64,000 nt of DNA from Polytrichum commune. Its lineage: Eukaryota; Streptophyta; Polytrichopsida; Polytrichales; Polytrichaceae. The translations under genes and the position numbers were made by a program. Shown here piece after piece: positions 1-54,393 of the stretch (within the stretch, counting starts at the first letter, position 1; each line of letters begins with the position of its first letter). The stretch covers positions 44,947,169 to 45,011,168 of the forward strand of contig OX485806.1 in the NCBI GenBank assembly GCA_950295325.1. Direction: 5' to 3'. The notes beneath the pieces are model-generated. The model searched no databases and had not been told where the DNA came from. It saw only the letters and a program-made list of their open reading frames with translations.

Positions 1-2560
1 AACAATGCCGTCCCCGCTTGAACAGTGCCGCCCCAGTGCTGAAACCCTAGGGCGTACGCAGAGCATCAATCGTTGGAGAACACCGTGCCGCTGTCGCAGA
101 GCGTCTTGTTGGAGAACACTGCAATTTAACTTCTCCAATATCACTGCAATATCACTTCTGCAATTTGGTAAGTACCTTCTGAGCAGACGATGCTACGTTA
201 AAATAGTGACTTGTATAGTGTGAAGAATGAGATAAGAATCACTCGACTTGTATACCTCTGTTGCAAGCACTTTAAGACTGTAAGGATGCACTTGAGGTAC
301 CTTTAATGCATCTCTTTCCTTCGCTGTTTAATCATCTCCAGTTGGGCTCCAGTTCAGTCTACCACAGTGTCTGGGGAGAGTTTTCGCATAATCTGTGAAG
401 ATATATGAGAGTCACAGAGGATTCTCTAGCATTGTTAAGCTCCTTAGGAGCACACGAAGTTAATGCACATTTTACAGTGCAATGTTATCTTGTAAAGGAA
501 GATTTCTAAACAAGATCCATGATGGCCAGTAGCAAACATCTGAGCAAGGCCTATCTATTACTGATTTATATGCACAGAAACCAAAACGCTTCCTTGACAC
601 AACATTCAACAAGTTCACCTATCTTCTAACTTGTGAGGTATAACAAGGCCTAATACTGATAATTAAGATTCAAAACTACAGCACCTTGCTCTTAATCTTT
701 AGTTTCACCTCAGTTTTTCATACTTCAAAGACTGACTGTTGAGACATAGAGTTGTGGAACGTACAAGTACCTCGTACAAGTAGTTGCTTGCTTACAAAGC
801 ATACTCTCAGAATGTTTTGCAAGAGTGTGGTCATTGGTGAGGCAACAGCTATTCCCTACCAAGTGAATGGACAATGCTTTTTACTCTTCCACTCACTGCA
901 GGGATCATGTATCGTTAATTCCCTATTCAATGAACTTGTCCGATTGAAGGTAATGAACTGTTGTGATCTTTCGGTTCCTCTTTACTAATGTGAGGTATGT
1001 TCCATAGATTCCTCAAACTAGCAGTCGGCTCTCCCCGTTCATTGGTCGTCTCCTTTTATTCAGTCTGATCTTCTGAAGGCTGGCTCTTCATCGATGCATG
1101 CAAATGCTCAACTTGCACTACTTGACTAAGTGAACTATGAAATTTTCACATGCCCCTGTAGTCGTGGAAATTCTGTAGTCACCCATCACGTGTATGTATT
1201 TCCATCCCTGCTATCGCAGTAAAGCTAATGTCAGCATTTCGTGAAACTATGAGAGCTTGCTTCAGTTCTCATCTTTCACATCTTCTGTACATTAACACTA
1301 CGGGGATTGCTTGTTCGTAGTTACCACATTCATGCATCTGACTGAGTTAGTGCACTGTAATGTCGCATTTTTGCAAGTGATTTCTCCTCCAATTTGTTCA
1401 TTACCCGAGGTTTTATTTACTGCTTTGTCGAACTTGTCCGATTCAAGGTAATGATATGTACTCCGTTAATTATGGAGGAACCCTAGTCATTACTGTGTCG
1501 GTTATTCAAAAAATTACTCGAGCACTGTTTACTGAGTGTCACCGCAATACAGAGCATGTGAAGTGGTGATCTAGTAGAGATTAGAAGTTGTCTTTGACAG
1601 AAGCAGATAATTTCTGTGTTCTAATTGTTATCAGTGATCCCACTAAATTTCCACGTTAATGTTGCGGTAATTGAAAGGACTATGCTATTCGCAAGTCTTC
1701 TACAACTGATTCCTCTTGTTTGTGGGCTTATTGACAAATTCCTCTTCCTTTCTTTCACAAATCTCACTTTCTAGCGTTCGTTAAATTCTGCAATTTGTTC
1801 TTGCTGTTCAGCTCAGCCTCATCGACCAGGAATGCTTTGGAAGTGGTTCGTTTTCCTTAAAACTGGGTATGCATTGACCAACTGATATGGTTTGTGCAAC
1901 GAACATCTCTCATATTATTCTGATGTGATTGTGTAGGGGATTATCTCAGCTTTTGGTTGGAGATTCACTACAATTCCATTTACCCACTTGGAGGTAAATT
2001 CACTTGTTTTTTACTATGTAGTTCATTTTTCCTTTTGTAGCTTATTGTAGTCAACATCTTGCTTTCTCTTCACCAATAAAAGGCCGAGTTTAGAATGGAC
2101 ATCCACTAGCAATCTTGTGCCTTTAAGGTATGTGGGTACTTGGATACTTTCTCAAATAGATCCCTATATTTGATTGGTGTGGTTAGATGAGGATCAAAGA
2201 ACGAGCACCAAAAGACACATGTTAATAAAAGATTGGCCTATGTCTTCAAACATAATTGACATAGTCCAAGCTATAATCATAAGAGTAACCCAACATATGT
2301 TGCAAAATAGGGTAAGTAACACTATTACGCATGTGACATTAAATACCTCAAAACGGCGTAGTTCTGAGATTGGGTTTCAGAATTTGCATTGTTTCTCACA
2401 AATGTTATTGATGTTATTTGCTCACTTTGCAGTGTAGAGTATGCTACTGTTTTCAACTTGAAAGAAAACCAAATTGCATTCCAATGTAAGATCAGCTTTG
2501 TAGATTAGTATATAGTACCATAGAAGCCAAATCCGCGAATTGCGCAAATTGCAGAGTCCT
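1..2560. other. non-coding stretch upstream of copy A
   Basis: No convincing coding region on either strand. The first 168 bases are GC-richer and end in a good splice-donor context (TTTG|GTAAGTACC at about 169), so they could be a 5' untranslated exon of a gene on the + strand; no downstream exon could be tied to it. A short direct repeat, GAACTTGTCCGATT followed by AAGGTAATGA, occurs near 930-955 and 1430-1452. The rest is mixed AT-rich sequence. An ORF at 2174-2437 has no recognisable domain. Confidence 0.4.
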
Positions 2561-2576
2561 GGAAATGGACTCAAGT

Positions 2577-2831
2577 TTATGGACGCACGTCCGTAAACTC
2601 TAGGGATAATTGTGTAAGAAAGAAAAATTCTCTTGCAAAATACATGTGCAAAGTTTACGGACACGCGTCCGTAAATTCTAAGGATAATTGTGTAAGAAAG
2701 AAAAATTCTCTTGCAAAATACATGTGCAAAGTTTACGGACGCGCGTCCGTAAACTCTAAGGATAATTGTGTAAGAAAGAAAAATCCTCTTGCAAAATACA
2801 TGTGCAAAGTTTACAGATGCGCATCCGTAAA
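2577..2831. repeat. 78-bp tandem repeat, each unit carrying the palindrome
   Basis: Four copies of the CG-rich dyad (2577-2598, 2654-2675, 2732-2753, 2810-2831) are spaced 77, 78 and 78 bp apart. Near-identical AT-rich spacers join them (ending AAAATACATGTGCAAAG). The copy at 2732-2753 is a perfect 22-bp palindrome with half site TTTACGGACGC. Peptide ORFs here on both strands are translations of the repeat, not genes. The array lies upstream of the first recognised exon of copy A, in a promoter, 5' untranslated or intron position. Confidence 0.9.
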
Positions 2832-3113
2832 TATATTTCTTAAATACTAGCCAATCCATGTAATGATCCTAAACAATATTCGGGAACAATAGCCGTATAT
2901 AAAATATTATTAAAAACACCCAATAAAACTCCATTGTGAATGTATAAGAAGATTTTACGTCATATAACAATAACAGTTGACATCATGCATAATCTTATAA
3001 ATTCTATATATAAAATCACGAGTTCAAATACTAAGAATTGCAAGCACCAAGCTATAGAAATCTTACAAATAAATAATCACCAATAATCTTTGAATTAAAT
3101 ACTACTATATTTG

Positions 3114-3135
3114 TTTACGGATGCGTGTCCGTAAA
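3114..3135. repeat. dispersed 22-bp palindrome, copy A 5' region
   Basis: Dyad with arms TTTACGGATGC and a matching right arm ending CCGTAAA. It is the same motif as the 2577-2831 array, but isolated in AT-rich DNA. Relative to other copies, symmetric changes keep the arms paired. Confidence 0.85.
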
Positions 3136-3309
3136 CATTCAATACATGTGATTTATATGTTGAATTGGATTACATAAGATATACATCACATGTTGTAGGC
3201 AAATCTATCAATATGAAAGATATTTATTCAAATATTATTTTTAAATTACATTTTGTATATACCCAATCATATAGGTACAAAAATTCCTTGCTTCAATGTT
3301 TGTCTAAAA

Positions 3310-3331
3310 TTTACGAATGTATGTTCGTAAA
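3310..3331. repeat. dispersed 22-bp palindrome just upstream of the first exon of copy A
   Basis: Dyad with left arm TTTACGAATGT and right arm ATGTTCGTAAA, extended by flanking AA/TT. It lies 57 bases before the ATG at 3388. The probable splice acceptor TTATTTATGCAG directly precedes that ATG, so this site is probably inside a 5' intron. Confidence 0.85.
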
Positions 3332-3387
3332 TTAAATTACGTTTTCATTGAAATATTATACTAATTATATCTATCTTATTTATGCAG

Positions 3388-4684
3388 ATGGCTTCTAAAA
3401 AGAGAACCGCTATTGAGATGTTTGCAGAACTTTTCATTCTTCCACTGCCAAATGCAATCAAAGATCTTAGCAACAATGACCATTACAAGCCAAAAGACGA
3501 AATTGTAGATAACTGGACAGTCATTGTAGAAAAAGATGAAAAATAAATTTTTGTGCTTAGATTTGCCTACCAAATAAAGGCAAACATAAAAGAATCCAAA
3601 AAATGGATTAAACTGAAACTATGGACAATAGAATGTGTAGTGGCCCAAGGGGATTATGTCGTGATCGATTTGGAGAAGAAAGATGATCGAATAACATTTA
3701 TTTTGCACGAGTCTTATCATCCATTTAACAAGAATGAATATGAGCTTGAAAGTCCAGATGCACGTTGCTTCAACCTCGAGAAGAAATTTCAAGACTACGC
3801 GTGCAATGCAACTTGGACGGGTAAGCGGTTTGGATGTCTCTTAAACAATGTGACAAGAGTGAATGGCGCCTTGCTAGAGGCCAAGAAAAGAAAAGAAAAG
3901 AAAAGAAAAAATATGTCACATCTGCAAAAAACAAACGTGTTCCTAAGCCCGTTTCAGAAACCTCAAGACCATCTCAAAGTGGTGCATCAAGAGAAAGCAG
4001 GCAAGTAAGAAAACGCTCTCACTCTCAGATGGAGTCGTCTGGGCTTACAGAAGGGCCAGATATCAGCTCCACACTTACTGTCGCATCTCTTCTAAAAAAA
4101 AGACAACGCCCTGACGCCGAATTATCAACAAAGATACTCCAAGAGTTTAACGAGAGGACAAAATGATGTTGGCCACTTGACAGATATTTCACATTTGAAA
4201 TGGACGTTTACAAGTGTTACAAAGGGAATGAAAGTATGAATACCATGGCAAAAGAAGATAGCGGATTGTGGTGGTAAATGAACAATATCATGAACAATCC
4301 CAAATTCGACAAACAAACGATTTGTGTGACACCCAAGGATCCGGTGGTTGAAGTCATAGAGAAAAATTGGCCTATTCTCAAGGAAATAGAGTTCTATATA
4401 GTCGATGGCCAACACAGTGTGATGGCTGCAAAAGCTCTTCTTGCTAATGATGAGTGGAAAAACCCTTTGAAGGAAGCAATCCGATATTCGAAGGCATTTG
4501 TCGTGTATTCCAAAGACTCAAACCAGCTTATTGCAATATCTGCTTTCATGAACCAAGGTAACAAAGTCAGGCAATTTGAGGCTTCATGGGCAGCCAACAT
4601 TGTGGGTGGGAGAACCTTGTGGGTGGAGCACGGATGTCCACCTAAAGAAAGAAAGAATCCCATGATTAAGAACCCAAATGGCAG
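3388..4684 (+). pseudogene. copy A, first exon: N-terminal region plus ParB-like DGQH domain (broken)
   Basis: ATG at 3388 follows a splice acceptor. The reading frame runs to an in-frame TAA at 3544, resumes in the same frame to about 3890, then shifts frame at an AAAAG-rich tract encoding a basic KKRKEKKK-like stretch (possible nuclear localisation signal). The second frame reaches 4684 with further stops at 4164 and 4275. The last 130 codons hold VDGQHSVMAAKAL, close to the [IV]DG[HQ]H motif of ParB/Srx-fold and DGQHR proteins, with the expected hydrophobic lead-in. A donor follows at 4685 (CAG|GTAAAT). I infer one ancestral exon now a pseudogene. The ParB assignment rests on motif resemblance; the N-terminal 150 codons are not recognised. 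The equivalent part of copy B is missing from this window. Confidence 0.55.
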
Positions 4685-4702
4685 GTAAATCTCTCGACTG
4701 AA

Positions 4703-4724
4703 TTTACGAACGCGTGTTCGTAAC
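4703..4724. repeat. 22-bp palindrome in the first intron of copy A
   Basis: AATTTACGAACGCG followed by TGTTCGTAA, 18 bases after the splice donor at 4685. The arms carry GAAC/GTTC where other copies carry GGAC/GTCC, a compensating exchange. Confidence 0.85.
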
Positions 4725-4809
4725 CCTCACCAATTACTCTCTAATGTTTTAATTGTTTGATTTTTTTTATGTTAATTTTTTTGCGTTTATGCCTTTTGCA
4801 AACATTTAG

Positions 4810-6120
4810 CAATGCGATTTTAACAAAGTTCTCAAGTATAGTCATGAAAACAAGCGGCTAAAAAACGGTGCATGAATTAAAAGATGAGCTGAAGATCATC
4901 ACTGCCATAGAAGAGATATGGGCAATCTGGTTGCAACTCTTTGATGCTCACAACAACAGAGACCTTGTAAATCCAGACACAGATAACACCTTCAAGACTC
5001 ACTCAAAGGTAAAAATACCACTAATCCTAAGAGAGTTTTTTCCGTCCCGCCCAAAGATTGCTTGACTCGGAGCTTTACAGAGCGGCACAACACATTCTTC
5101 TCAAAACTCCGTGAAGGACTATCTTACCCCAAAATCTTTTTGATGCGACCGAAATATATGAAGCCTTCTACGTACCACATGAAGGAATGGTGCAAATACA
5201 AAAAGAAGACTACCATGGCCATAAGGGAGATAAGCATATTGTTGCCCATTTACAATCTCACTAATTCAGATGGTGAGATAGTGTAGAAAAACTGGAGGAA
5301 GCTGAAAGATGAATATCACATCAATGGGGTCTCTATGCGAGCTCTGATAAGATAGGCATTTTTTTTCTTAGTCCAACGATCAAGGAATAACAAAAAAAAA
5401 GGATCCATTGACGAGTGGGAGATAGGGTTGTACCTAAAATTCCTTGAGAGAAAAAAGAAAGCAAAGTTCGGAGGGGTTGCAAGATTCTGCACAGTTTCTT
5501 CGACCATGAAGTTCGGCACATGGGACACACATGCTTCAAGAGCCTCTGTGAGAGATGACCCCCAAGGTTGTCTTTTTGCAATATTTGATTTCCGTGCATT
5601 CCCCGGAGCTTGGAAAGAAGAGGGTGCCGGAACTCCTTTTTATGAGTCCTTCTTTAAAGCCTTCAAGACCTATCGGTCGTCTGCGCTCTTTGAACCAAAT
5701 GTGTGGTTTTGGATTGTAGAGCAAGAGAGGTCCGTATCAGTCGTCCAACTCTTCAACTCAATGATGAACCTCCAACACGATCTCTACTACAACACATACA
5801 TCCCAGCGAAGACAGAGGGGATCACTATTGTCTAAGACGCAAGGGGAGTGAAGCAAGGGGGAGCTGTGCAACTTTATTTTTTGACACACAAGTCTTCACC
5901 AACTGGGCGACTGCCTATTAAAACAAGTTTTGTGTTCAAAAAATTATATTCGTCGTCTGTATCATAGCCCAAGGAACTCATGGAAGAAACTTTGTATACA
6001 ATCTGCCCGGCTTACGAGCTCCGAATGGATTTTTATATTGGAATCTTGAAGGCTTTGACTGGGATGAATGAAACGGTTTACAATGTTTTCGGAGGCACCA
6101 AATTTGTTTATGCAGCATTG
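4810..6120 (+). pseudogene. copy A, second exon: methyltransferase-like region (broken)
   Basis: Homologous to copy B exon 54393-53172, in several frames because of frameshifts near 4868, 5060 and 5290 and stops near 5355, 5395, 5833 and 5968. Recognisable blocks: FDAHNNRDLVNPDTD, then a helical block, GVARFC, FAIFDFRAFP, NVWFWIVEQE, TYIPAKTEGI, and PKELMEETLYT leading into ETVYNVFGGTKFVYAAL at the exon end. The order of a DFR/DPP-like site, a hydrophobic strand with IVEQ, a (K)PxEL block and an F-G-G loop matches the beta-class N4/N6 DNA methyltransferase layout, where DPPY and DPFxGSG are expected. Both key motifs are degenerate, so a working enzyme is unlikely. Donor ATTG|GTGAGT at 6121. 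Confidence 0.55.
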
Positions 6121-6169
6121 GTGAGTAGTTGTTTGTCTTTCTTCCTTTCTTTGGTCATCTTCATGGAAT

Positions 6170-6268
6170 TTCACGAACGCGCGTCCGTATAATTGCTTTA
6201 TATCTTCATATGATAGGATTTCTCCAGCAACTCTTGGCTGGGTATTTTTACGAGCGCGCATCCATAAA
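6170..6268. repeat. two palindromes in the second intron of copy A
   Basis: Sites at about 6170-6191 (TTCACGAACGCGCG then TCCGTATA) and 6247-6268 (TTTTACGAGCGCGC then ATCCATAAA), both imperfect. They lie in the 246-bp intron 6121-6366. The homologous intron of copy B (52981-53171) also holds exactly two. Confidence 0.8.
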
Positions 6269-6366
6269 TTATATTACTTTATTTTGTTACTTGTAATGAT
6301 ATATTGTTTCTCATTTATATGCCATTATCACATTAATCCCCCTCCAATTTTGTTGTTATATTGTAG

Positions 6367-7776
6367 ATGCTTGGGCTGCAAGTAAATTTTTTTGTGGATG
6401 TTTGCGACTACGATGATGCAAAAGCCCACATGGTTATTGCCTCTAAAATGGATATCCAAGACATCATGGATGTGTTTTCTCCCCAGCCTGTAGTACCGCT
6501 TGCCTCTCGAAATGAGGCAATGCCTGAAATAGAGACAGACACCGACGAAGGCCAGGATACCAACTCCCCAAAAGAGCGGCCCACCACACACGAAGATTTA
6601 CACAGCCTTATTCGTGAGCCTACCACAAATATTTTCCTTCTGGGCACAGATCACATGGATACGCAAGATACACATGTAGCTGTTACTCCACTAAAGGTCC
6701 CCCATTCCCTTGTTCTCTCATCTTTTGGGACTCCCACTTCTCGTGTTGGGTTTCCTTCCACTGTGGGTCCATCTCATGTTGCGGGGATCATTGCAGAGAA
6801 GGATGACGAGCTTGCGATAGAAGCCGGATGTACAGCTTCATCCGGAGGGGGATCTCAATAGGCAGAGCTCACACCTATGGAGGGTAGGGATGTGCTAGAG
6901 CTGATCTTGAGGCCCGACATATCTCTATACTGTGAGAGTCGACGAAAGAGGAACAAAACTCCCTACAACGAATATCCTGAAGGCGCGGTCTTGGAACTCT
7001 CCGATGAAGACGAGGATGAGGTTAGGATTCACAATGCCATCTCTGCCTTGCCTACCAAACCATGCAAGGTGAAGAAAGAGCCGATGTCAGTGTCCGTGTT
7101 GGACGACAAGCTAGAGAAGAGAATGAAGGAAGAGTTTGACCAACGGCTTCAGGAGGCTAATGAGCTGCACGCCAAAAAGATGGCTGCCATCCAAGCTGAG
7201 ATGGAGCAAGCTAGGTTGGAATCTGCTCGCAGGCACGCTGATCTTATGGCTCAAAATCAGCAGTTCTTGGCCCAGAGCCAACAATTCATGAGCTTGATGC
7301 AGAGCTTGCAGGCAAGACCCCAAGTTGTGTATGCAGCTCCCGAGGCCAGCATGTCGATGCCCACCACTCTTATACGGCCTCCATCTAGTAGTCATGCAAT
7401 GTATATACCAAAGCATGCTTATCCAACCCCCGCGTTGATTGTCCCGCCCTCTCCCCAGGTTGCAACCACTCCAGAGCCCTCCTCTCATACTATAGGAGAG
7501 GAGATACCAGCAAGTGACACGGTAGGTGCCGCCGAGAGAGATGTCAATGAAGGCAACGCCCTCATCGGCGACGAAGATGAACATATGCGAGGCAGCCAAG
7601 ACGACACAAATGAGGATCAACCCTACGTAGATACCCAAGGGTTGCAAGCGGTTGGAGACACTTTGATGGTGGTTGAAGATAGTTTGGACAATTTTGCGAG
7701 CGCGCGTCCGGAACATGGTCCCATGATGGGACCTGGTGAGGGAGGCACTGCTGGCGTGGACCTCGCCGCTGAAGAG
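6367..7776 (+). pseudogene. copy A, third exon: acidic/proline-rich linker with coiled coil
   Basis: Acceptor TTGTAG|ATG at 6367. The first residues, MLGLQVNFFVD, complete the methyltransferase-like fold across the splice. The frame is open except for one TAG at 6859 and continues in the same frame to a donor GAAGAG|GTAATG at 7777. Contents: an acidic, Ser/Thr/Pro-rich linker; a conserved KTPYNEYPEGAVLELSDEDE block shared with copy B; a Lys/Glu-rich coiled coil (about 7090-7310, KRMKEEFDQRLQEA onward, ending in Gln repeats); then a Pro-rich and acidic tail. Copy B has the same order and the same donor context. A palindrome copy lies inside the coding sequence at about 7693-7714. Function unknown; probably scaffold or linker. 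Confidence 0.6.
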
Positions 7777-7804
7777 GTAATGAACCTTTGAGCATGCCTC
7801 CCAC

Positions 7805-7826
7805 GTTACGGACGCGCCTCCGTATG
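7805..7826. repeat. palindrome in the third intron of copy A
   Basis: GTTACGGACGCGCC then TCCGTATG, about 28 bases after the donor at 7777, in the intron before the HAD exon. The homologous intron of copy B contains about five degenerate copies. Confidence 0.8.
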
Positions 7827-8116
7827 TTCTTTGTCTGCTTCCTTCGTGGCATGTATATATTATCGAGTTCCATTCTCGACTTCGCCCGGCGGGTGGATAC
7901 AATTTACTTAGCATAGATTCCATTAACTTCAGCAGAGATTTTTTGTGACAATGTATGTAATTCACCAAATGTATATAACCAATTACATTAATACAATTTC
8001 TTGAACTGGATGGTTCGGATTATTTTGGCATTATATTTCTTTGTTGAATTTATCCATGTTTGTCAATTGGTTTTCCTGAGTAGTACCATTCACCTAGATA
8101 GAATGTTCCATCACAG

Positions 8117-8884
8117 GGTCCGTCGGAGATATGTCGCAACCCCGCTGGAAGACCAAGTCGGCCCATGAGGAAACCATTCATAATATTTGACCTCAATGGG
8201 GTACTTTGTCATTCCAAACATATCTCGCATAGTGGGTCCAAGGGGCCCTTTCGTAGTCCAGAAGACATGGATTACGGCGGACAGTTCGATACTCTCATTA
8301 ATAAGAAGGTTGTACGGGCCCGACCCGGCTTGAGAGGCTTCCTTTGTGAGGTCCTTGGCTTCGCCCATGTCATCATCTGGAGCTCTATGCTCATGGACAA
8401 CATGAAGGCCATCGTTGGTTTCCTTTTCCGAAAACTTGCAATGCCATGCTTGCTTTTCAGTCAAGAACACTACGATGACCTCTATGACCGTAGTGGCAAG
8501 ATTGTACCCAAGGTCGGAGGAGGTCATGTGCCTCAATTCCTAAAGGTCCTGAGGAAGAACCTCTGGGTGGGCGTTCCTACGTTGGAGGGGGTTCCCCATG
8601 GTTGTTGGCCCACTCCAGAGAACACATTCCTCATTGACGACAATCTCGCAAAGAGTATTCTCAATCCCCCGAGCAATTGCATATTTCCGGATCCTTGGGA
8701 AAGCAATAGAAATGACAACTTTCTAGAGAGTGAACTAGGACCCTACATTAAGAGGCTTGCCTATCACCCCGGAATTGTCCCAGATTTTGTGCTCTCCAAC
8801 CCCATTGGCAATAGGCCTCTAGGCCCACAAGATGAGGAATTTAGGAGGTTGTACGGCTACGCTAGACTCAATAAATTAATATGA
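8117..8884 (+). CDS. copy A, HAD (FCP1/NIF-like) phosphatase exon
   Basis: The exon opens after acceptor CACAG at 8117 in phase 0, matching the phase-0 donor at 7777, so it reads in frame from the preceding exon; an internal ATG at 8165 could also start a 239-aa protein. Motifs: FDLNGVLCHS (HAD motif I, nucleophile Asp kept, second Asp replaced by Asn), VRARPGLRGFL, VIIWSSM (motif II), LKVLRK (motif III Lys) and TFLIDDNLAKSILNP (motif IV DD). This is the layout of plant NIF/FCP1/TIM50-like HAD proteins. The frame is completely open, and copy B (50155-50920) is about 60% identical by eye and ends with the same NKLI-stop. Asn for the second Asp may reduce or change phosphatase activity. Confidence 0.75.
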   Translation, partial: GPSEICRNPAGRPSRPMRKPFIIFDLNGVLCHSKHISHSGSKGPFRSPEDMDYGGQFDTLINKKVVRARPGLRGFLCEVLGFAHVIIWSSMLMDNMKAIVGFLFRKLAMPCLLFSQEHYDDLYDRSGKIVPKVGGGHVPQFLKVLRKNLWVGVPTLEGVPHGCWPTPENTFLIDDNLAKSILNPPSNCIFPDPWESNRNDNFLESELGPYIKRLAYHPGIVPDFVLSNPIGNRPLGPQDEEFRRLYGYARLNKLI

Positions 8885-8973
8885 AAACTTTAATTTTGGG
8901 TTTGTACTTGGACTCTCCATGTAAATATCTAACATTTCTCCCCTTATCTTTGTAATGTATTTTTGTGTCTTAG

Positions 8974-9877
8974 TTGCCTCACCAAGCACCCCAAAGTGTC
9001 GTCAATGGCATGTATGCATCACAGCCAGGTCCCAACTCCCCTTCCCTTGGCATGAGCGACGTTGCAATGCCTTCACTATTCCAATTTTCGGCCGTCGATG
9101 CCGCTTCTGTTGTTGATTACTCCAAAGACTCCGGGTTTGAAGACGGAGTTGTGGATAGCCCTCCTACAAAGGTTGCAAAACTCAATTACGCTCCATCTCC
9201 ATCTTCATCTCCCCTCCGCAATGAGAAGCACGTTCGAAACCCACAGTCGACCAGACGTCTTTGCATGAATGAACCCCAAATTGATGTCCCGGCGTTTACG
9301 AACGTCCCTCTCGGGCTTGTATCTACCCCCCTCGATGTCCCAGAAGCTCTAACCAGCGCCCCGAAGGCCAAGGTGCCCAACTATTGGCATTCTCAAGTTT
9401 TTCCTTGATGATTTCCGTGTATTAGTGCATTTCAGTTTTTTAGGTTTTTGGGACTTCCATCCGTAACTTGTAACCATTTATACGAACCCTTCATTATATA
9501 TATTTATTGTCATTGTTCAGACCCCAATATACACGAATGTGGGCCGGTCATCCTCGACTTCATCATTGGATAGGCGAACACTGAAGACTGCTTCTTGCGA
9601 GTCTGATCGTTGTTTGGCCCTACGGAAGAGTGCAAGACATTCGGTTTCCCAAACGCATTCGTATTCCACTCACAATACCACAACCCACAAATCGGTAGCG
9701 GGTCAGCAAATATGGGCAAATGGCACATATTTGGGACCAGTGAATAAACAAGGTTACAGCCGCGGGTCCGAGATCTTTAGAGCCATGGATGCCATTAAAG
9801 CAAAAGAAAAAGAAACGGCCGCAAAGGCTATTGCAAAAATAAAAGTAGTGAGTCGTATTCACGATCCAAACATATAG
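8974..9877 (+). CDS. copy A, downstream partner ORF (two exons, unknown)
   Basis: First exon from 8974, directly after TGTCTTAG, to a stop at 9409: Ser/Pro-rich, low complexity, with a half palindrome (GTTTACGAACGT) at about 9295. Second exon from 9521, after TTGTTCAG, to the stop at 9877: conserved in copy B (49060-49361). Shared blocks are SLDR, ESDRCLALR, SARHS, YSTHN, GYSRGSEIFRAM(D/E)A and a Lys/Ala-rich end. No known domain recognised. It may be a separate small gene or the 3' part of the large gene through alternative splicing past the NKLI stop. The donor of the first exon is unclear. Confidence 0.45.
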
Positions 9878-10132
9878 GCTATTATTAACATACGATTAGT
9901 TGTGGGATTATATTTCTAGGATTTTGGCCTAATATTGGATATTCCACATGTATTTTGTACTTCAACCCTACTCAATAAATATGATATCGATTTTGTATAT
10001 ACAAATGTTTTCATATATCCCATTTTCTTATTTATGTTTGTGTAGTTCCATGGATTTGAGTCTCATATATGTATCCAAAATTGGGAACATAGCATCTTTA
10101 TATTGTTTTCCCTCCTACAATTGTGAAAGCCA
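9878..10132. other. 3' flank of copy A, diverged from copy B
   Basis: AT-rich and non-coding. A TGTATCCAAAATT string at about 10071-10083 lies 50 bases before the conserved box. Copy B has the same string 50 bases from its box, so the flanks are alignable but heavily diverged. Confidence 0.5.
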
Positions 10133-10188
10133 CGTCCTTAAATAGTCTCAAAATCAACAAAAAATCTCCAATTACCGAATATAGTGTT
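10133..10188 (+). other. 56-bp conserved non-coding box (copy A)
   Basis: Matches the reverse complement of 48690-48745 at 55 of 56 positions, starting CGTCCTTAAATAGTCTCA and ending CGAATATAGTGTT. The coding parts of the two copies are far more diverged and the flanks on either side hardly align. It is not palindromic and has no ORF. It could be a terminus, a 3'-end processing or regulatory element, a small RNA, or a piece of a repeat. Confidence 0.85.
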
Positions 10189-27845: not shown

Positions 27846-30756
27846 CCTCAACCCTCTATGACTCCAAATACTGCAACCTCTATAGCTCAAGATGTTCCAC
27901 AATTCAAAATCAAAGTAGAGTCTCCAGAAAAATTTATTACCATTTCGAATGATTCATCTTCTCATGATGAAGTTGATGTTGCATATGTCAATCCCATTTT
28001 TTTTAGACCACATCTTCCCTAAACGGTGTCATCTCCCTTTACTAGTTCAACATCTCTTTTAATGTCACAATCACATTCTATACGTCTTTCCAGTCTTGAT
28101 CTTCAAGAAATTCCTAGTGCTCTTCATGGTTGCGAATACGAATTGCGATCTTTGAAATTTGATATTTTGGATATACAAAAAATGAAATATCTTCCTTTTG
28201 TTTTCACTGGTGATATTATGTTTGAGTTGCCCCCTACATCATCAATTGCATCAATTTTCCCAATTGGAAAGTTGATGAATGGAATGGACAAAAAATATGA
28301 TGGTCATATGTCGTGTAAAACAAAGACCACCAATATCAAAAATGATTTCAATCTAACATTTTGTAGATCTATGTGTGTTGGCCATCTTCAATGTTAGAAT
28401 GATGTTTGTCAAGTTTTTCTCAAAATTTTCTATATGCAACAAGATAGAATGGGAAGGTGTGGCCACAAATCCATTTGTTGTGGGCTTCATTCACCTCAAG
28501 CCTCCTGAATCAACATTGGTTTGTAAAATTTGTAAGTTGTCCCCAACTTGCATTGATACATGTCATCGTTGAATGTATTATGTTATGTGCAAAATTGATA
28601 TCATGACTAGAGCATGCATTCATCTTGGACATCATAATCATCCGGTATCACTTGGAGTTTGTAAAGATGCTTTGGATAACATCCGGTCCCTCATTGATCA
28701 AGAGGTGTCCAAGACCCCTATTGCCAAAACATTTGTCATTGCTCTTGCCGCAAGTTAGGAGTTTCTCTCTAGTTTTTTTTACTACATGACGATGACAATG
28801 GTCCTAATACATTGAAAGGGTCATCGTTAAACGATGTTATGGATCAATATACGGTGTTGAGTTATCCTAACATTCGCAACATCAATTCGTCATTTCATCT
28901 TTAATCTGGAGGCAAAGGATGTGTAGACAATTTCTAAAGCTCAAGAAACGTAGCACATATGATTTTGTTCAAGAGAGTGTATTCCCATGCCAAGGTTCAA
29001 AAAAAATTTATCTCTTCAAGATGTCAGTTCAAGGCCCAGGGAGTGGAGTTGATCAAGTAAAACGTATGCAACCGGGTGGTTCTTGGGAGAATGTTTGGCT
29101 TATGTTTGATCACGTTAAACGTGTTAAAGATTGGACTTCAATGGCATGTTATGTTTATGACTCAACCTATTGTAAGGTCATGACTATTGCAGTATGCGAC
29201 ATGCAATATGAAGATATAGAGTCTCAATGTTTTATGTGGAATGCACTAAACCGTGTGATGGCCAACCACGGTGTACCTAATCCTAATTTCAAAGGAACCA
29301 TGGCTGATAGTGCTCAAGAAAATTATAATGTTGTTTGTCTCATTTATGGGAATGGTGATCCAAAAATTCCTATGGAGGATTGTGAACGCACATGTCTTCT
29401 TCATTGAACTATGTCTTTGGATAGACATACCCAGAGACTTATCAGAAGTGATATGCAAAATCAACATAAAATGTTGTGCAAACAATATAAAGATGTTAAA
29501 CATGCTAAAGATTATGAGGTCAAATATTTGGCTATCCGAGCATGGTGGCTATTATTGGGTGTTGCAACTAAGAAGGAATTCAGAAGTTGGATGATTGGTT
29601 GGGATTTTGTCATTTTTGATATTGGCAATGGGGTGGTTTCAAAGTAATGGTATGATGTTTATTTTCTTTTTGTTTACATATTTATTCATAAATCTTATAT
29701 ACATAATTTATATTTTGTGTATTTAACATTGTTGAATGTGCATTTGTAATGTAGGAACTCACTTTGGATGAATTGGTTGGAAGTTTTTTTGCAACCTTTT
29801 TGAAATTGTACACAACAAATGGCTTCAACAATCTGATAACAGGGGTTTAGATTTGTATGTTGCAACAATGGATGATTATGCTCGTGCATTTTCACAATCA
29901 ACAAATTAATATGCAAAATTAAAGGGAAACATGTCTATAACTGGGTCAAACAAGGATGAACTAAAGTTGAAGGTAGCAAGATGGTGATCCACAAAATTGT
30001 AGAGGTTGTTAGCAACTATTCGAATAATGGTGTTCTCAACACCCACATTCCACACCTTGAAGGTGAAGAGATATTTGGATCAAGTAAACAAAAAATGGAT
30101 TTGGCCCTAGGATTTGATAGTGATTCTCATCGTCCAGACAAGGTGAATTTTTCCATACCTAGAGTTGTGCAAACAAGATCTACACGTGCACATTTGGGTG
30201 AAAGAATTTTGACATCTCAATTTCATTCGGAAAACAATGAATGCATGGATACAAGACCAATACAAATACGTCACGCCAATAACGTATTTGAGACAAATTG
30301 TGATGTCGCAAAATGGCACATTGCTCATTGTCCAACAAAATTTGCAAAACAATGTTGTGCATTGTAAGCAATTACCAAGAAAAAATGCATAGCTCAAATT
30401 GTTGAAGGTTCAAAAGGTACATTTGCCATCATTTATCATGGATTGAAGATCGCATATGGTACTCATGAGGAGATTTATGTTGATTTTCGGTTTTGTTGTG
30501 ATGATATTGAAAGATGTGTGAAAAAATACAAACGATAGTTTGTATCGGAATGGCCTGCCATTCCCAACACGTGACCAGTGAAAATTGGCACAAATTTACA
30601 TGCCACGAAATCTTGGCATTGGAGGAAACCGGATTTCAATTGGAAGAGCATGGGGAATTATCTCCACGTGAATTTTTTGGCGGGCCATCCACAACAGCTA
30701 TGGACTTAATAAACCATCCCAAACGAGCTAACCCCAATGACTATGCTACAACATGA
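27846..30756 (+). pseudogene. unknown transposon-like gene family U, copy 1 (broken)
   Basis: Successive frame-shifted blocks are homologous to the - strand copy at 46000-43390: NGMDKKYDGH then KTTNIKNDF (N-terminal), TRACIHLGHHNHPVS, SRACIHLG-type His-rich block, MFDHVKRVKDWTSMACYVYD, ITIAVCDMQYED-like strand, NHGVPNPNFKGTMADSAQEN, DCERTCLLHW, FDSDSHRPDKVNFSIPR and a C-terminal WPxIPNT..VKIGTNL block. The middle order of strand-D, strand, helix and ADSA could be an RNase-H-like transposase core, as in MULE elements. That is inference and the family has no name I can give. At least six stops or frame changes make it a pseudogene. A 3' piece around 29650-29900 is poorly conserved. Confidence 0.5.
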
Positions 30757-33700
30757 TATGGCATAGTCATACGGCTCAACTTGAAAGCTCCTACCATTGA
30801 TCATGCATTGATCATGGCAACAAATGGGAAAGTGCACGCCAAGTTCAAGCCCAAGTTCAAAATGTGACTAAGGTCCCTTACCCATGATTTGGTAGGGTAT
30901 TTACCATAGATAGTGATATATATCCTAGTAAAAAATAATACCACCTTATAATTAGCGATTTCCCAATTGTTCATGTGTTGATTTCATCAACATGTATATT
31001 GTAGCTTTAGGTAAGAAGGAACAATGGTTGAACTACAAATATTATATATTTAGTATCGGTTGCAAAGCTCATTGTGAGCATGATAATTACATCCATGCTC
31101 CTAGTTTAAGCTACAACAAAATTGAGCGTCTTCTTGTCCTTGCTGGTGTTGGGAACAATCGACCTTAGATTGTTTACTTATATAAATAAATGGCAAATTT
31201 TTTTGACCTTTTTCATTTTTATTTTATTCACACCAATGTCTTGTATGATTCACATTCTCATTTGACTCTCACCATATATTCAAAATCTACATTTATAAAT
31301 TGAAGGTCGAGATCAAAAAATTATTATTAGCATTATTAATTTTGATATTTATCATTTTGGTAAGTTAAGGCTTACATATCAACGCTCACCGCTCACCGCT
31401 CACATGCTAGCGTCGTTGTCAAATGGCCTAACATAATAAAACATTGTGGCACCTACAAAAACTCATGCATACATACTTTAAGAATATAGACACCTTGGTG
31501 TGCCTTTAGATAATACAATATATTATTAATAATACCCATGCATATGTACACATGGTCATTGTCAATACTTGCCCAAATTAAATTAGACATATTAATCATT
31601 AATACAACCAAAACATAGTCTATTATGCCACACATATGTCTAGTGTCCACTTCATCATATCTAATTTCTACCATGACATCAAACCAACACAAACAACTTT
31701 AATATTCAGCATTGGTGGTGTAAACATGCAGCAATTCAGGCCCTTCATGCCAACCATGCATGCAAAAATCCATTTAATTACTATAAAATGCCTCACAAAG
31801 CTCATGCTCAACAATAAGTGACTAGAATATCATGAGCTCCCTATCTTAACCCATGACTTTTGATAGGAGGTAGTGGCACTTGTTCCATTTCCTTACTATA
31901 TAAACCCATTCCAACTTCACATATGAATTTTGGAACATATGATACATCCTTCATCCATGGAAACTTTGGGGTGGAGTTGCCCCTCTCTCTTTATTTTTAA
32001 GGTAATTGGAGGCTATGGTCTTGACCTTTCTTCCAAATGCACCACCCGCCCTGAAGATAAACCAATGTTGCCTTCATGTGCAAAAATGTAACACCTTTTA
32101 AGGATAGTTTTTACTTCATTCCATCTTTTGTCCAAGTTTTCTTTCAATTCTTGGATCTATTAGCAATATTTTATGCTATGCCAGGTGGACCGGTACCGCC
32201 CGTCGCCCGCCATCCAACTCTGTTATGTGTCGGTTTGCCTCAAAGATCATTTGGCCTTGATGTGCATTGTGGTTTTATGCCTTTACCAACCATCCTTCAA
32301 CAATTTGGTTTTGCTAGTGATTTAGCATATATTAATTTGCATGGTTGTATAGGAACATGTGGTCCACAACCATGCTCTAGTTGACATTGTTCAACCATTT
32401 TTCCACCCAAACTTCCTTGTTTATTTTTTGTTTAATTTTTTTTGACGCCGTGTTTGGTCATGCAAATTTTTTTTGTAAGACCTTTCATATGATTCACTAC
32501 CATATTGTGATTGAGATATTATTCAGAATTTTTTGGTCAACTCCCAAATCCTATCTACCGCCTTTTGTGAGGTTATTTTTGCCTAAGCTTGAGTCAATTT
32601 TTTGTTTCTTCAACAACCACCATCATTTTTCCATGCATATATGGCTAAAATATAGAACACCCAATGCGCCCATTCCTTTATAGGGTACATAAAAATTTGT
32701 GTTGTTTTTTTTAAGGAAAAGTTGAGAAACTCCACACAAAACATTTTTGCGAAGTTTACATTGATCTCACAAAACCAAAAAAATAAAGGGAATTGCCACC
32801 AAATTTGAGGTTCAACCCATAGACAAACTTTTAGATAAATTTTTTTTTTAATCTTACATTTTTGCCCATGCAGCTTTTGAATGTGTTGCCGCCCACTTCT
32901 AAAACGTACACAATTTCCTCGTGTTTGGTTAATTTGTTGGCAGTATGTTTACTATGGGTATCAAATGGTTCATTGACATTTTCCTTGTTCTTGGAGTCAT
33001 TTTTATTACCCTTCTAGATCATTTGGCGTGCATTTTTCTTTTGCTCAAAGTCATTTTTATGCTTTCCTAAAACCTTCGTAATGCATTTTTTAGAATGACC
33101 TTGCATATAGCCAAATTTTGGGTTTTTTTTTTTGTTTTTTTCCTTGATCAATACCATTTCATTGATTAGTTTTCTTGCAAACAATTGCAAAATGGTTATC
33201 CCTATGTCAGACTCTAAGTGAATGTTGCCCCTTCGGTGTTCCAACATCTAGAGGTTGGTATGGTTTCATTACCCAAAACCTTGGCCGTATCTTTTGAAAT
33301 GTAATGGATACCTAAACTTCATTTTTGGATGATGACTGTTATAATGCACAACCTCATTGTTGACTCTTCTCCAGTCTCATATGGTTAATTGAGATGACAA
33401 CATTGATTGCCCTACTATTTTTTTCCATATTCTAGGTCGATTAGTATTATCATGTAGCTAATTTTTTTGTTTCAATTACCTTTATTTTGGGCTATGATTC
33501 ATGTGATGATTGGCTACAATTGATCACATGATTCTTTTCATTTGGTCATTGGTATTTTCTACTTCCTTCTCATTGTTACCTAGTTCTTTGGTATCTTCAT
33601 GGGCTTGGTCTTTGTTATCAACTTATTTCTCTTTTTGCTATTTGTTACCTAGTTTTTTCCCATTCAACCCCTCCCATCACAATTGTTCATACCTACCACC

Positions 33701-38594: not shown

Positions 38595-38602
38595 CTCACA
38601 AG

Positions 38603-38943
38603 CTCGGGGGGGGGGGGCAGTGTGTTAAAAAATTAAGGATATAGGTGCGAACAACCACTATTTTATAGGGGGTATTACTTTCAATTTTTTTTTTCACATG
38701 CTATCATTATGTAAATTTCTACTTTGGGTTAATAGAAAAATGGCTTGCATTACTTATAATTCCAAATTACCTATTATTCCATACCCTATAGTACTTTAAA
38801 GATGTCCAGTGCCATTTTTGATACCCTATATTACTCTTAAGTCCATTTATAATTTTTTGCCCCCATGTTTTTAAAATACCCTATCATTTGTTCACACGTA
38901 TATTGCTACTCCAACCAATGACTACCCCCCCCCCCCCCCCGAG
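38603..38943 (-). mobile_element. MITE with poly-G/C termini, copy 2 (inverted)
   Basis: Begins CTCGGGGGG and ends in a C run plus CGAG, flanked on both sides by CTCACAAG (38595-38602 and 38944-38951), an 8-bp target duplication. The interior is the reverse complement of copy 1. Its different duplication shows that it inserted independently. Confidence 0.85.
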
Positions 38944-38951
38944 CTCACAAG

Positions 38952-43050: not shown

Positions 43051-43054
43051 TGCT

Positions 43055-48689: not shown

Positions 48690-48745
48690 AACACTATATT
48701 CGGTAATTGGAGATTTTTTGTTGATTATGAGACTATTTAAGGACG
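48690..48745 (-). other. 56-bp conserved non-coding box (copy B)
   Basis: Reverse complement of 10133-10188 with one mismatch. It lies 314 bases beyond the end of the copy B partner ORF, against 255 bases in copy A, in the same relative orientation. See the copy A entry. Confidence 0.85.
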
Positions 48746-49059: not shown

Positions 49060-49361
49060 TTATTTTTTTGCGGCCTTGTCCTTGCTTTTGGCAGCCTCCA
49101 TGGCTCTGAAAATCTCCGGCCCGCGGTTGTAACCATTTTTGTTGATGGGCCTGGAATATGTGTCGTTCTTCCATATTTCAGAACGCGCTCCCGAATTGTA
49201 CGAAGTGGGATTGTGAGTGGAATAAAAGTGCGTTTGCGAGAGGGAATGTCTTGCGCTTCGGCGGAGGGCCAAACAACGATCGGACTCGGATGATGCGGCC
49301 TTGAAAGCATGCCTATCCAAGGAAAACGTGGAGGAGGGCCGGCCACCAAGAGGGTAGCCAC
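49060..49361 (-). CDS. copy B, downstream partner ORF, last exon
   Basis: Begins after the acceptor TTTTGGAG on the - strand and ends at the stop at 49060. It shares STFSLDR, ESDRCLALRRSARHS, YSTHN, GYNRGPEIFRAMEA and a Lys/Ala-rich end with the copy A exon 9521-9877. The intact frame and conserved end argue that it is a real, once-selected coding exon. Function unknown. Confidence 0.5.
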
Positions 49362-50085: not shown

Positions 50086-50154
50086 GACATCCAAAAACGG
50101 AGCAAGCATTAGATATGTGAACCACATGATAACAAACACAGACATGGAGGCATT

Positions 50155-50920
50155 TCAAATCAATTTATTAAATTTGGTGAGCCTCATGATGCTCTTGAAT
50201 ACATTATCGCGGGGGCTTGGCCCCACATTGCCGATGGGGTTGGACCTAACAAAAAAAGGGATGCTACCGGCGTGGAGCACAAGCCTTCTAAGGTAAGGCG
50301 TTAGCGTGTCTACCAAAAATGTGTCGTTCCTATTGCCGGTCCAAGTGCCGGGGAAGATGACGTTGCCCCGGGGGTTCAAGACGCTTTTGGTGGGGCTGTC
50401 GTCGATGAGGACGGTGTTCTCAGGAGTTGGCCACCACCCATGGGGTACCCCCTGCAGACGGGGGATGCCTCGCCACAGTTTAGACCTAAGGACCTTGAGG
50501 AATTGTTGTCCTCCGCCTTGGCCGCCGAACTTTGGAACCGGCAGACCCTTTTCGTCGAGCAATTCATCGCAATCCTCTTGGCCGAGGACGAGGTAAGGGC
50601 TCGGGAGATCACGGAAGAGGAAGTCGACGATTGGCTCCGTGTTCTTCATGATCATGGAACTCCACACAATGACGTGAGCTAAGTCGAGCACCTCGCGAAG
50701 GAAGTCCCGCAAGCCGGGACGGGCACGGACAGCCTTGCGGTTAATGAGGGTGTCGAGCTCGCCGTCATAGTCCCTTTCGTCGAGGTGACGGAAGGGACGC
50801 GTGGGGACCTTGGGAATGTGTTGGGTGTGACACAACACCCCGTTGAGGTCAAACACTAGGAAGGGTTTTTGTCGGGTTTCACGTCCACTGGTCGAGGGGT
50901 TGCGACCTATCTCCGGGGTC
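50155..50920 (-). CDS. copy B, HAD (FCP1/NIF-like) phosphatase exon
   Basis: Open from after the acceptor ATCACAG at 50920 to the stop at 50155. Motifs: FDLNGVLCHTQ (nucleophile Asp; Asn at the second position, as in copy A), VRARPGLRDFL, VIVWSSM, LKVLRSK and TVLIDDSPTKSVLNP. The C-terminus NKLI-stop is shared with copy A. In the HAD frame, one base precedes the first full codon after the acceptor, while the donor at 51548 is phase 0, so splicing would put this exon out of frame; copy A is in phase. The domain may survive only as a separate product, or the gene is dead. Confidence 0.7.
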
Positions 50921-51057
50921 CTGTGATTAACAATTTGACTAGTTTAATGCTACGATCCACTAAAGAATTTTGCATCAAGGGAAATGACGATGCATTATGG
51001 GAAAAGACGAGGAACTGGGGAAAAAATGCAAGGAGATTTTGCTCAATGGCACACTTG

Positions 51058-51520
51058 CAAACGTGCGTTCGTGAATGAGGGCTGCGGGTGGCGGTACGCA
51101 TCATTTACGAGCGCTGGTTCGTGAGTGTGGCTACACGAACATTTACGAGCGTTCATTCGTGAAAGAGGTGGACAAAGGGTCACACCCTTTTATGAACGAG
51201 CGTTTGTCAACGAGGTGGGTATGCAAGTGTAAAAATGCGCATGAACATACATAATACAAGATGCGATACGATACAAGAAGCTGGGAGGATGCGACACAGA
51301 GATCATCTGCTCATATATTAATTCGATGAATATTTACAATTGTCTCACGTGATAATCTATCACAGTTTCCTAAGGCAACATGATGTCGTGTCCTACAAAA
51401 TTTAGTGGCCTAAGGGACCAGGTAGGAAAGGGTCCTCGAGGGCCTTGTGATGCCGATGGAGAGGAATCACCAAGAACAAAACGCGCAGGGGTTAGTGGTT
51501 ACAAACGCGCATTCGTCAAA
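51058..51520. repeat. cluster of five degenerate palindromes in a copy B intron
   Basis: Sites near 51058-51077, 51104-51125, 51142-51163, 51189-51210 and 51499-51520, each with TTTACGA(A/G)CG-like and (T/C)GTTCGT(G/A)A-like arms. They lie in the intron 50921-51547 before the HAD exon, where copy A has one site. Confidence 0.75.
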
Positions 51521-51547: not shown

Positions 51548-52980
51548 CTCGTCATCGGGGGGAGGGGCAGCGGTGCTGGACCGAGCAGTTCCCTCATCTT
51601 CAATTAAGGAACACGCGTTCGTAATGTCCATTGGGCCACCCGCCTCTGTCTCCATGGCCTCTGCTGCACGTTCTGCCTGAGACGCATGGGTCTGCTGGAT
51701 GAGCTCCGCGTCTTCGTCTTCTCCGCCCAGGTCGAAAGTCTCCATGCGGACATCCTCCATCCGCACGGAGGGATGTCGTTCCTGCTCAGGGCTCTCCACG
51801 TCCATTCTTTGGATCCCTGTCGCGTCATTGGGGCTCCCCTCCGTGTTTTCCACAATGACCATGTCAGTGTGTTGCGCAGTGTCATTGCCCTGCCTACCCA
51901 CCCACTACCCTGGGGACGACGGTGAATGAACCCGTTTCCGTCTTTGATGGCAGTCCTACTCTTGAAGGTGGAGGGGTGAAGACTGTAGGACCTGAAGATT
52001 CACGAACGCGCGTTCGTAAATCCTCATCCTCTTGGATGGCCGCTGCGACAGCGTCATAGGAGGTGGTCGCGGGAGTGCCAATAGGCGTAGGGTGGGGCGC
52101 CTGTTGGTGGGTAGGCCCTCCGGGAAACATGCCTGGCGGGGGGGACTGGGAGGGGTATCCTCCAGGGAAGGGGTAGGCCGGCGGGGGGGGGGGGCGCTGA
52201 GAAGTTCTGCATCCGGCTGAGCATGGCGAGGTTGGCGTCCGTCTTCGCGTTTGAGGCCCTTAGCTCCTCCTGTATGACGGACATTGTCCTCGCGTTCTCC
52301 TCTGCAACCGCCGCCATGTCCTCCTTCATCTTTTTCTCGAGCTTGGCGTTAAGCTCGGTAACTGACAACGCCTCCCCTTTGACCCTCTTGTTTTTGTCAA
52401 AGTCCAGCCCTAGCTCAACCATGATCTCCATGTCACCCTCATCCTCATCAGAGCCCTCGATGATGGCCCCCTCCGACAACTCCACGTAAGGGGTCTTCTT
52501 CATCCCCCTCGTGTTGCGGAAGAGGTCCAAGGACGGCCGGGAGCATTGGTCGAGAAGATCGAGGTTGTCCATCTTAGGAACCACGAGATGGGGCCAAGGC
52601 GACACGGAAGTCGAGCACCCCCCGAGAGTGCCAAAGGGCTCCGCTCTAGACGTTTGCACGGGGAGGACATCTTGTGTTGTCCCCGCCGATGATCCCGTGT
52701 ATCCACTTGGAGTCCCCTGCACGTTGGATGGATTTCCCGCCGGCGCCAACATTCGAAGCGGGGTGACGTCGAACAACTGGACGATGGCGTCCAGGTTGGC
52801 GGATGGAACGGGCTCGTCATCGTCTGTCTCCATGACGGGTATGCCCTCGTCAGCGGGCATGTTGAATTCCGTCCTGGGGACAGACATGTCACCCAGATCC
52901 ACTGTGGACGCCTTCGTCTTGTGGAGCTTATACTCCTCGTCGACGGCATCAACGTATGTGTTGACGCATAGCCCCAACAT
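51548..52980 (-). pseudogene. copy B, third exon: acidic linker, coiled coil, Pro-rich tail
   Basis: Acceptor TTTCCCAG|ATG at 52980, donor GACGAG|GTAACT after 51548. The frame starts MLGLCVNTYVDAVDEEYKL, finishing the methyltransferase-like fold, then an acidic linker, KTPYVELSEGAIIEGSDEDE, a Lys/Glu-rich coiled coil (about 52400-52220) and a Pro-rich tail. Frameshifts are needed at the G/C run near 52181-52190 and near 51900. Two palindromes lie within the coding sequence (about 51606-51625 and 51999-52020), the second encoding RTRVRE. Same architecture as copy A exon 6367-7776. Confidence 0.6.
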
Positions 52981-53152: not shown

Positions 53153-53171
53153 GTTTAGTAGAAGAACTTAC

Positions 53172-54393
53172 CATTGCAGCGTACATAAATTTTCTGCCTC
53201 CAAAGACGTTGTGAACTGTCTCTCCATTCATCGCCAATTCCTGCAACACGGATACGCAGAACTCCAACCTGAGCTCCAATGCTAGGAAGACCGTGTACAG
53301 CGTTTCTTGCAGCAGCTCCTTGGGAGGGTGGTGAGGGATGCTATAAATCTTCTTGAACGTGTTGTTGCCCTTGACAGGTGCTCGCCCATTCCTCAGCGCA
53401 TTGTACGTCAAGAAGGTGAGGCTGACCGCTCCCACCTGCTTGTTGCCCCTGGCCTCGTTAATTGCCACGATCCCTTCCATCTTGGCAGGCACATATGTGC
53501 TGTGGAATATGTTGTATTCGAATTTTATTGTCTCCTCGTACAGCTCGGTGACGACGGAGACCTTCTCTTGTTCAACAATCCACAGCCACACGTGTGGCTT
53601 CCTCATGGTTGGAGATTTGTACTCCATGAATTTTGCCATGAAGGGGTTGTAAAAAAACAACCCCTTCGCCCCCTGCCTAGATGCATTCGGGATCCCCCTG
53701 AAATCGAGTATTGTGAAGGGACAACCCCTGCGGTCTTCCCTGACCTCGGCCCTGCTATTGGTGTCGTCCCACTTGGAGAATGTTGTCCTCTCCAACCCGG
53801 TTGTGACCACACAAAATCTAGCGACGCCCTCGAATGTGGCGTTTATCTTCATCTCCAAGAAGGAGATGTACCGCTGCAGCTCATCGGGTTCTGTCTCCGT
53901 CTTCTTGGCTCTCTTGTTGCTGTTGAATTTCAAAACGGTGATGTGCTCTTTCACTAGGCTTCACATCGAGGCCCCATTGATGTTGTACAACGACTTGAAC
54001 TCCTTCCATTTGGTCCAGTTGATGTCGCCGTCAACATGGAAGAGTTCCATTTCTGGCAGGAGACCGCTCAACTCCCGCATCGTAGCTGTCTTCATCTTCC
54101 TGTGGTCGCACCACTCCTTGATGGAGTATGTTCTGGGCTTATGCTTGGGCCTCTTCAAAAAAAATCTTGGGATATGGGATTGTTCTTCCCACTATGTTCC
54201 CAAGTACATGAACCGCACATCGCTTCAGTTCCGACTCTGTGAGTCCTTGCAGGGACCTGAAGAACTCCCTTAGCAATGGAAGGGCCTCTCCGGTCTTGTC
54301 CGCGCTGTATTTATCCTCTGTATCGGGGTTGACGAGATCGCCCGAGTTGTGCGCGTCAAAAAATTGTGTCCACAACTCCCAAGTGTCCTTGTT
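53172..54393 (-). pseudogene. copy B, methyltransferase-like exon, 5'-truncated
   Basis: The 5' side is cut at 54393, where an LTR begins. The remaining exon reads WTQFFDAHNSGDLVNPDTED, with a frameshift near 54155, EWCDHRKMK, an in-frame TGA at 53963-53961 (copy A has CGA here), then a long open frame to the donor at 53171. Blocks: FEGVARFC, CPFTILDFRGIPNAS (DPPY position), HVWLWIVEQEKVSVV, TYVPAKMEGI, PPKELLQETLYT, and NGETVHNVFGGRKFMYAAM (DPFxGSG position). The order fits a beta-class DNA methyltransferase with eroded catalytic and AdoMet motifs. The ParB-like part expected upstream is absent here. Confidence 0.55.

Follow-up and report, generated by a model that had tools for sequence, protein, structure and literature searches.

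The question raised by this 64,000-nucleotide stretch of Polytrichum commune DNA (contig OX485806.1; the whole stretch is referred to as the window) is what kind of gene unites segments resembling ParB, an amino-methyltransferase and a NIF-type HAD domain, and why its two copies, A and B, are accompanied by a 22-bp palindrome, TTTACGRACGCGCGTYCGTAAA. In the reading that we prefer, to which we give a probability of about 0.5, copies A and B belong, in decayed form, to a dispersed family of eukaryotic genes encoding a self-targeting DNA-binding accessory protein, with the palindromes as its own sites.

Copy A, on the plus strand, comprises four exons (3388..4684, 4810..6120, 6367..7776 and 8117..8884), the blocks outlined in the original prediction, and all of its introns are GT-AG. 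The broken exon 1 is supported by 24 homologue clusters, by the model and fold comparison of the relative P0052 and by its donor site; it encodes a PH-like N-terminus, a low-confidence linker and a ParB/sulfiredoxin-like DGQH domain. Exon 2, also broken and matching exon 2 of copy B, encodes a helical region and a methyltransferase-like fold, the latter taken from the relative P0003. These are followed by an acidic and coiled-coil-like region in exon 3, which holds one stop (the coiled coil was judged by eye), and by a NIF-type HAD domain in exon 4, which is open and begins at a splice acceptor. Copy B lies on the minus strand and consists of exons 2 to 4 only: a partial methyltransferase-like exon 2 with one frameshift and one stop (53172..54393), a frameshifted acidic and coiled-coil-like exon 3 (51548..52980) and an open HAD exon 4 (50155..50920). 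Its recognisable sequence stops at 54393, from which the sequence is 87% identical to the long terminal repeats (LTRs, at 55890 and 62349) of a Ty3/gypsy element, and this LTR-like piece (54393-54723) adjoins the cut end of the copy.

The conserved blocks that had been proposed for the two copies were recovered in pairwise protein matches, with E values of 2e-38 for the exon 2 pieces, 4e-11 for exon 3 and 4e-87 for exon 4. The exon order that had been held to be common to both stands for blocks 2 to 4, which follow each other in the same order with GT-AG junctions (introns 2 and 3 in copy B), but not for the DGQH exon, which copy B lacks. Both copies are disrupted by frameshifts and stops, a decay on which the original prediction was silent, and the fourth exon is open in each. 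Between these two exons, nonsynonymous divergence (dN) was 0.36 and synonymous divergence (dS) 1.67 over 259 codons, a ratio that points to constraint, although dS is near saturation.

Relatives were sought among 5.8 billion proteins, accepting E values up to 1 for exons 1 and 2 and up to 0.001 for exon 4. Exon 1 of copy A found 24 clusters (best E 1e-239 at 82% identity; 198 member sequences when summed), exon 2 of copy B 51 (best E 4e-123) and exon 4 of copy B 31 (best E 1e-136), and many of the relatives span an entire exon without a stop. Because so many homologue clusters were found at strong E values, the exon blocks exceed chance, and together with copies A and B they bear out the dispersed multi-copy family that had been suggested. 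The relatives occur mostly as separate exon-sized products, as would be expected if the blocks were parts of different genes and the apparent mosaic had been produced by the reading of pseudogenes. This explanation is nevertheless very improbable, given the shared order and junctions of blocks 2 to 4 and the relatives that cross exon boundaries: the reading frame of P0070 continues past exon 1 and across intron 1 to exon 2, which shows the two exons side by side elsewhere too, and P0084 and P0103 run from sequence resembling intron 3 of copy B (compared by eye) into exon 4. The longest contig is 4856 for both P0003 and P0074, and 6315 for both P0004 and P0100, which suggests that each pair lies on one contig.

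The palindrome was matched 20 times in the window at up to 6 mismatches, always within or just upstream of the copies (2576-7826 and 51054-53152), whereas sequences simulated under a first-order Markov model had 0.25 matches on average and never more than 1 in 20 runs, and ten earlier runs yielded a single match between them. When 7 mismatches were allowed, all 24 matches fell inside 2500-9900 or 49000-54400, against a simulated mean of 1.4; at up to 8, there were 25 inside and 8 outside, and since outside matches now appear and the simulated mean rises to 11.4, the signal ends at this point. As the consensus was derived from these same 64 kb, the counts demonstrate that the sites are confined to the copies but do not amount to an independent discovery. 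Upstream of copy A, four sites (2576, 2654, 2732 and 2810) lie in a plus-strand tandem array of 3.3 copies of a 78-bp unit, detected by Tandem Repeats Finder at 2573..2831, and two others at 3114..3135 and 3310..3331, with 2 and 4 mismatches to the consensus, respectively. Within copy A, the palindrome scan placed one site in intron 1, 18 bases past the splice donor (4703..4724), two in intron 2 (6170-6191 and 6247-6268), one inside exon 3 (7693-7714) and one in intron 3 (7805..7826). The nine sites of copy B comprise two in intron 2 (53009-53030 and 53131-53152), two inside exon 3 (51604-51625 and 51999-52020) and five in intron 3 within 51054..51519 (at 51054, 51104, 51142, 51189 and 51498). 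Altogether, 17 of the 20 lie outside exons, and a copy holds up to 11. The exact palindrome had no match in viral contigs or genome contigs, and its core, in three spellings, was not found in the 5.39 million papers of PMC.

The tandem array, together with the presence of palindromes shortly after splice donors in many relatives, would also suit small mobile or intron-borne (introner-like) repeats unrelated to the function of the protein. Such an origin is quite improbable, as 22 bp is too short for an insert of this kind, sites also occur upstream of the gene and in exons, and the window holds no other copies at up to 7 mismatches.

The relatives are, at the level of sequence, the independent test of the palindrome that the window consensus could not be. 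Its translation was found in 16 of 18 exon 1 tails and in 17 of 26 exon 2 tails. These denominators are the clusters in which a rule recognised the exon end (21 of 24 for exon 1, 28 of 51 for exon 2) and in which the protein ran on for 5 residues or more; 3 and 23 clusters, respectively, were dropped because the rule found no exon end, and 3 and 2 because the tail was too short. The tails without the palindrome were those of P0057 and P0058 for exon 1 and nine for exon 2, some of the latter resembling eroded forms of it. Across the remaining 23,298 residues there were only 3 hits, all in read-through intron (after exon 2 in P0035 and P0043, before it in P0050). The tail patterns were written after the first tails had been seen, and thus this test was not blind.

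The palindrome also comes in types that agree with the gene subfamilies. Exon 1 relatives near copy A (P0052-P0066, P0069 and P0073) were of the GG type in 8 of 8 informative cases, and distant ones (P0067, P0068, P0070-P0072, P0074 and P0075) of the GA type in 5 of 5; among exon 2 relatives, those of the A type had GG (2/2) and those of the B type GA (11/11). The type can be read only where the reading frame tells, which left 11 of 24 exon 1 and 38 of 51 exon 2 proteins uninformative, the latter including P0041, a hit dropped because it lies in exon coding sequence. In the window, the half-sites of copy B were of the GA type in 18 of 18 cases and those of copy A of the GG type in 15 of 22 (Fisher 6e-6).

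This agreement cuts both ways: shared descent can also make type and subfamily agree. The same is predicted if the copies belong to an ordinary dispersed host gene family, whose palindromes would be regulatory sites of an unrelated host transcription factor, kept in introns by descent, and a search of limited extent turned up no transposon ends. We nevertheless consider this explanation rather unlikely. It accounts poorly for copies with as many as 11 sites, placed in several introns, in a tandem array and even in exons, with all nine sites of copy B of one type, and for the absence of the palindrome elsewhere in the 64 kb at up to 7 mismatches; moreover, the window alone contains two decayed copies and exon 1 has 198 member sequences, which suggests an element-like life. 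That a copy can hold several sites of one type argues for a joint change of protein and site, short of proof.

What the protein might do at such sites depends on its domains. A ParB/sulfiredoxin alpha/beta fold was found in the modelled relative P0052 by fold comparison, and exon 1 probably carries such a domain, with the fold as its support, which is stronger here than for the methyltransferase. The ParB-like segment named in the original prediction is thus upheld at the level of fold but not of sequence profiles, as Pfam, PHROGs, NCBIfam and Protein Data Bank (PDB) sequence profiles gave no significant ParB or methyltransferase match. The active pocket of ParB/sulfiredoxin proteins has a conserved arginine, in motifs of the GERR, GCHR or DGQHR type. 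Among the 22 of 24 exon 1 clusters that cover the segment, DGQHS was found in 19 and DGQHN, DGQHT and GGQHS in one each, none with arginine at the presumed equivalent position. The lack of arginine therefore lowers the claim of nucleotide chemistry, though not that of the fold. The region after the ParB fold in the P0052 model, where segregation ParB proteins have their helix-turn-helix, is of low confidence. A YEATS profile matched 2 of the 24 exon 1 members weakly (best E 0.019), and a match to the amidase 1jwq (E 0.0044) was taken as chance.

For exon 2, fold comparison of P0003 returned a methyltransferase-like (Rossmann-like) fold at modest Z, consistent with a degenerate methyltransferase-like domain; the methyltransferase-like segment that had been proposed therefore stands as a fold match of modest Z and not as a significant sequence-profile match. 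Amino-methyltransferases of the beta class or of MT-A70 have the catalytic motif (D/N/S)PP(Y/F/W). At the likely place of this DPPY/DPPW strand, none of the 17 sequences of alignment A1 had it and all 17 had DFR-x-(I/F/L)-P, while the glycine-rich motif was NVFGG(S/T)K or near it; these places are putative assignments, guided by topology rather than by a residue-level structure alignment. Since motifs usually needed for catalysis are altered, we think that the fold is more likely to bind DNA or to play a structural role than to act as a methylase.

The NIF/HAD domain, in turn, was confirmed in both copies by the PF03031 profile, at 46.1 bits in copy A (E 5.5e-12) and 61.5 in copy B (E 9.8e-17), above the curated cut-off of 21.8. 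In NIF-type HAD proteins, the nucleophile motif is DxDx(T/V). Here it reads DLNGV, with asparagine for the second aspartate, in copies A and B as well as in 10 of the 12 clusters in which the search pattern detected it, and NLNGV and NVNRV in the other two; alignment A4 shows no variation in the later HAD motifs SSM, K and D. If the presumed motif equivalences hold, each of the three enzyme-like folds would thus depart from the usual residue at a position on which catalysis generally depends.

These changes bear on the possibility that the family encodes a DNA-transposon accessory protein that actively methylates its own element, with N6-methyladenine (6mA) or N4-methylcytosine (4mC) as the product, as has been proposed for algal transposons. 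The methyltransferase-like fold fits this possibility, and so does the pairing of the same two domains in the 1104-residue Sola1-1_Ec32 protein of Ectocarpus (PMC12477816). The DFR in all 17 sequences and the altered glycine-rich motif make it unlikely.

ParB proteins bind long palindromes as dimers. The most economical reading of the confined sites would then be a protein that binds its own palindromes. In the mechanism that we propose, a protein of about 1,600 residues, with PH-like, ParB/sulfiredoxin-like, degenerate methyltransferase-like, acidic coiled-coil-like and NIF-type HAD parts, would recognise the 22-bp palindrome as a dimer upstream of and within the introns of its own gene copies, presumably as cargo of a mobile element. 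By gathering there, it would alter its own locus in chromatin state or in silencing, as VANC does for VANDAL, a step from binding to anti-silencing that we infer. A further, tentative possibility is that the family represents a eukaryotic counterpart of ParB-parS, borne by an element, in which a protein whose methyltransferase fold has lost its catalytic role would load on the palindromes of its own gene copies, spread along or bridge them, and keep silencing away, protein and site changing together between subfamilies.

Several known systems resemble the family in part. Bacterial ParB, Noc and KorB bind palindromic sites such as parS, and their usual motif bears arginine; unlike them, the present family has DGQH(S/T/N), contains introns and has no proven cytidine triphosphate (CTP) binding or helix-turn-helix. 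ParB-methyltransferase cases in green and red algae were reportedly described by Iyer in 2011 and by Petroll in 2025. In PMC12477816, ParB-methyltransferase proteins are reported from algal transposons (Sola1-1_Ec32 of Ectocarpus) and are suggested to bind and modify their own element, and thus the pairing is not wholly new. Here too, a large eukaryotic gene pairs ParB-like and amino-methyltransferase-like domains, exons 1 and 2 being adjacent in copy A and spanned by P0070, although the methyltransferase fold is the weaker. Compared by description with the algal proteins, the window family differs in its PH-like N-terminus, acidic region, NIF/HAD C-terminus and altered methyltransferase motifs, in its visible candidate binding sites and in having no transposase or element ends linked to it.

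The layout of the sites resembles that of VANC and VANDAL in Arabidopsis, where a short motif is concentrated in the element's own introns and in upstream tandem repeats, with types differing by subgroup (PMC5735166). The VANC21 motif given there, YAGTATTAY, is arrayed in one orientation, unlike the 22-bp palindrome of the window, and the likeness concerns motif layout and not protein sequence. A ParB-like domain is also fused to an adenine methylase in Bce_0392 (PMC5512222), a pairing shared by phage and bacterial fusions, whereas the window family has no sequence match in phages (exons 1 and 2) or plasmids (exon 1). In bdelloid rotifers, N4CMT (PMC8885841) is a captured bacterial-type amino-methyltransferase with a chromodomain, shown activity and a transposon link. 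It resembles the window family as a protein of this type in a eukaryotic genome but lacks the ParB-like domain and the changed motifs found here. The literature search, with most subscription papers outside it, returned no paper that describes candidate sites or the added NIF/HAD and PH-like domains. The kind of protein looks to be already known, and the candidate sites and added domains look to be what is new. The algal suggestion of binding and marking the own element came, in the portion of PMC12477816 consulted, without binding sites. The present family supplies candidate sites, site types that differ between its subfamilies, and relatives whose exons are open, and thereby makes the idea of self-binding by ParB-methyltransferase proteins directly testable; if the idea is true here, self-targeted anti-silencing would have evolved from ParB parts of bacterial type, outside the VANC family.

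Two suggestions on the origin of the locus fared less well. Capture from a phage found no backing, as the exon 1 and exon 2 proteins P0052 and P0003 had no tblastn match in the phage collection. Neither P0052 (by tblastn) nor copy B at 50155-53960 (by blastn) matched plasmids, and none of the pattern matches was confirmed in viral contigs (29 with the exon 2 alignment, 176 with that of exon 1) or in genome contigs (77, exon 1 alignment). A phage or plasmid origin by sequence was rejected on the lack of confirmed matches in phages, plasmids and viral contigs.

The other suggestion, a large mobile element, was not borne out. In the limited search for terminal repeats, the longest 5 of 17 inverted pairs for copy A and the longest 5 of 12 for copy B were palindromes or short chance-like pairs, target duplications being looked for by eye only. 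Beyond each copy lies a gene (28023-31165 on the A side, 45861-43056 on the B side; 57% over 102 residues) that we take, from motifs resembling the MULE type, to be transposase-like; the pieces tried gave no Pfam match. Among the longest 5 of 14 inverted pairs near 42216-47006, repeats at 42216-42297 and 46925-47006 (82 nt, 80% complementary) enclose the B-side gene, which was therefore treated as part of a separate element, and one large element joining gene and transposase was set aside. The left end of the 42216-47006 element holds 2.7 copies of a 188-196 bp tandem repeat.

Downstream of each copy, a second conserved reading frame was observed, at 8974..9877 on the plus strand for A (8974-9408 read by eye, with a B match only for 9542-9792) and at 49063..49344 on the minus strand for B, where both nucleotide and protein match A. 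Positions 9542-9792 and 49344-49094 are 75% identical, with 68% protein identity over 69 residues, and the frame has no Pfam match. Farther downstream lies a 56-bp block (10133..10188, plus strand, for A; 48690..48745, minus strand, for B) that is 98% identical between the loci, whereas the adjoining reading frame is only 75%. It begins with a sequence one mismatch off one palindrome half; an inverted partner was not found at up to 3 mismatches, and it matched no transfer RNA (tRNA) and no Rfam family, so that an RNA of either kind was discarded as the explanation for its conservation.

The Ty3/gypsy element (55890-63286, minus strand) is a recent chromovirus with a chromodomain, LTRs that are 99.7% identical and open frames for pol (57662-61003) and gag (60982-62313). 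Elsewhere in the window, an inverted pair of about 330 bp (38606-38932 and 26476-26145) is 96% identical, and the plus strand shows a long stretch of strong guanine-cytosine (GC) skew, down to -0.55, at 34000-44000.

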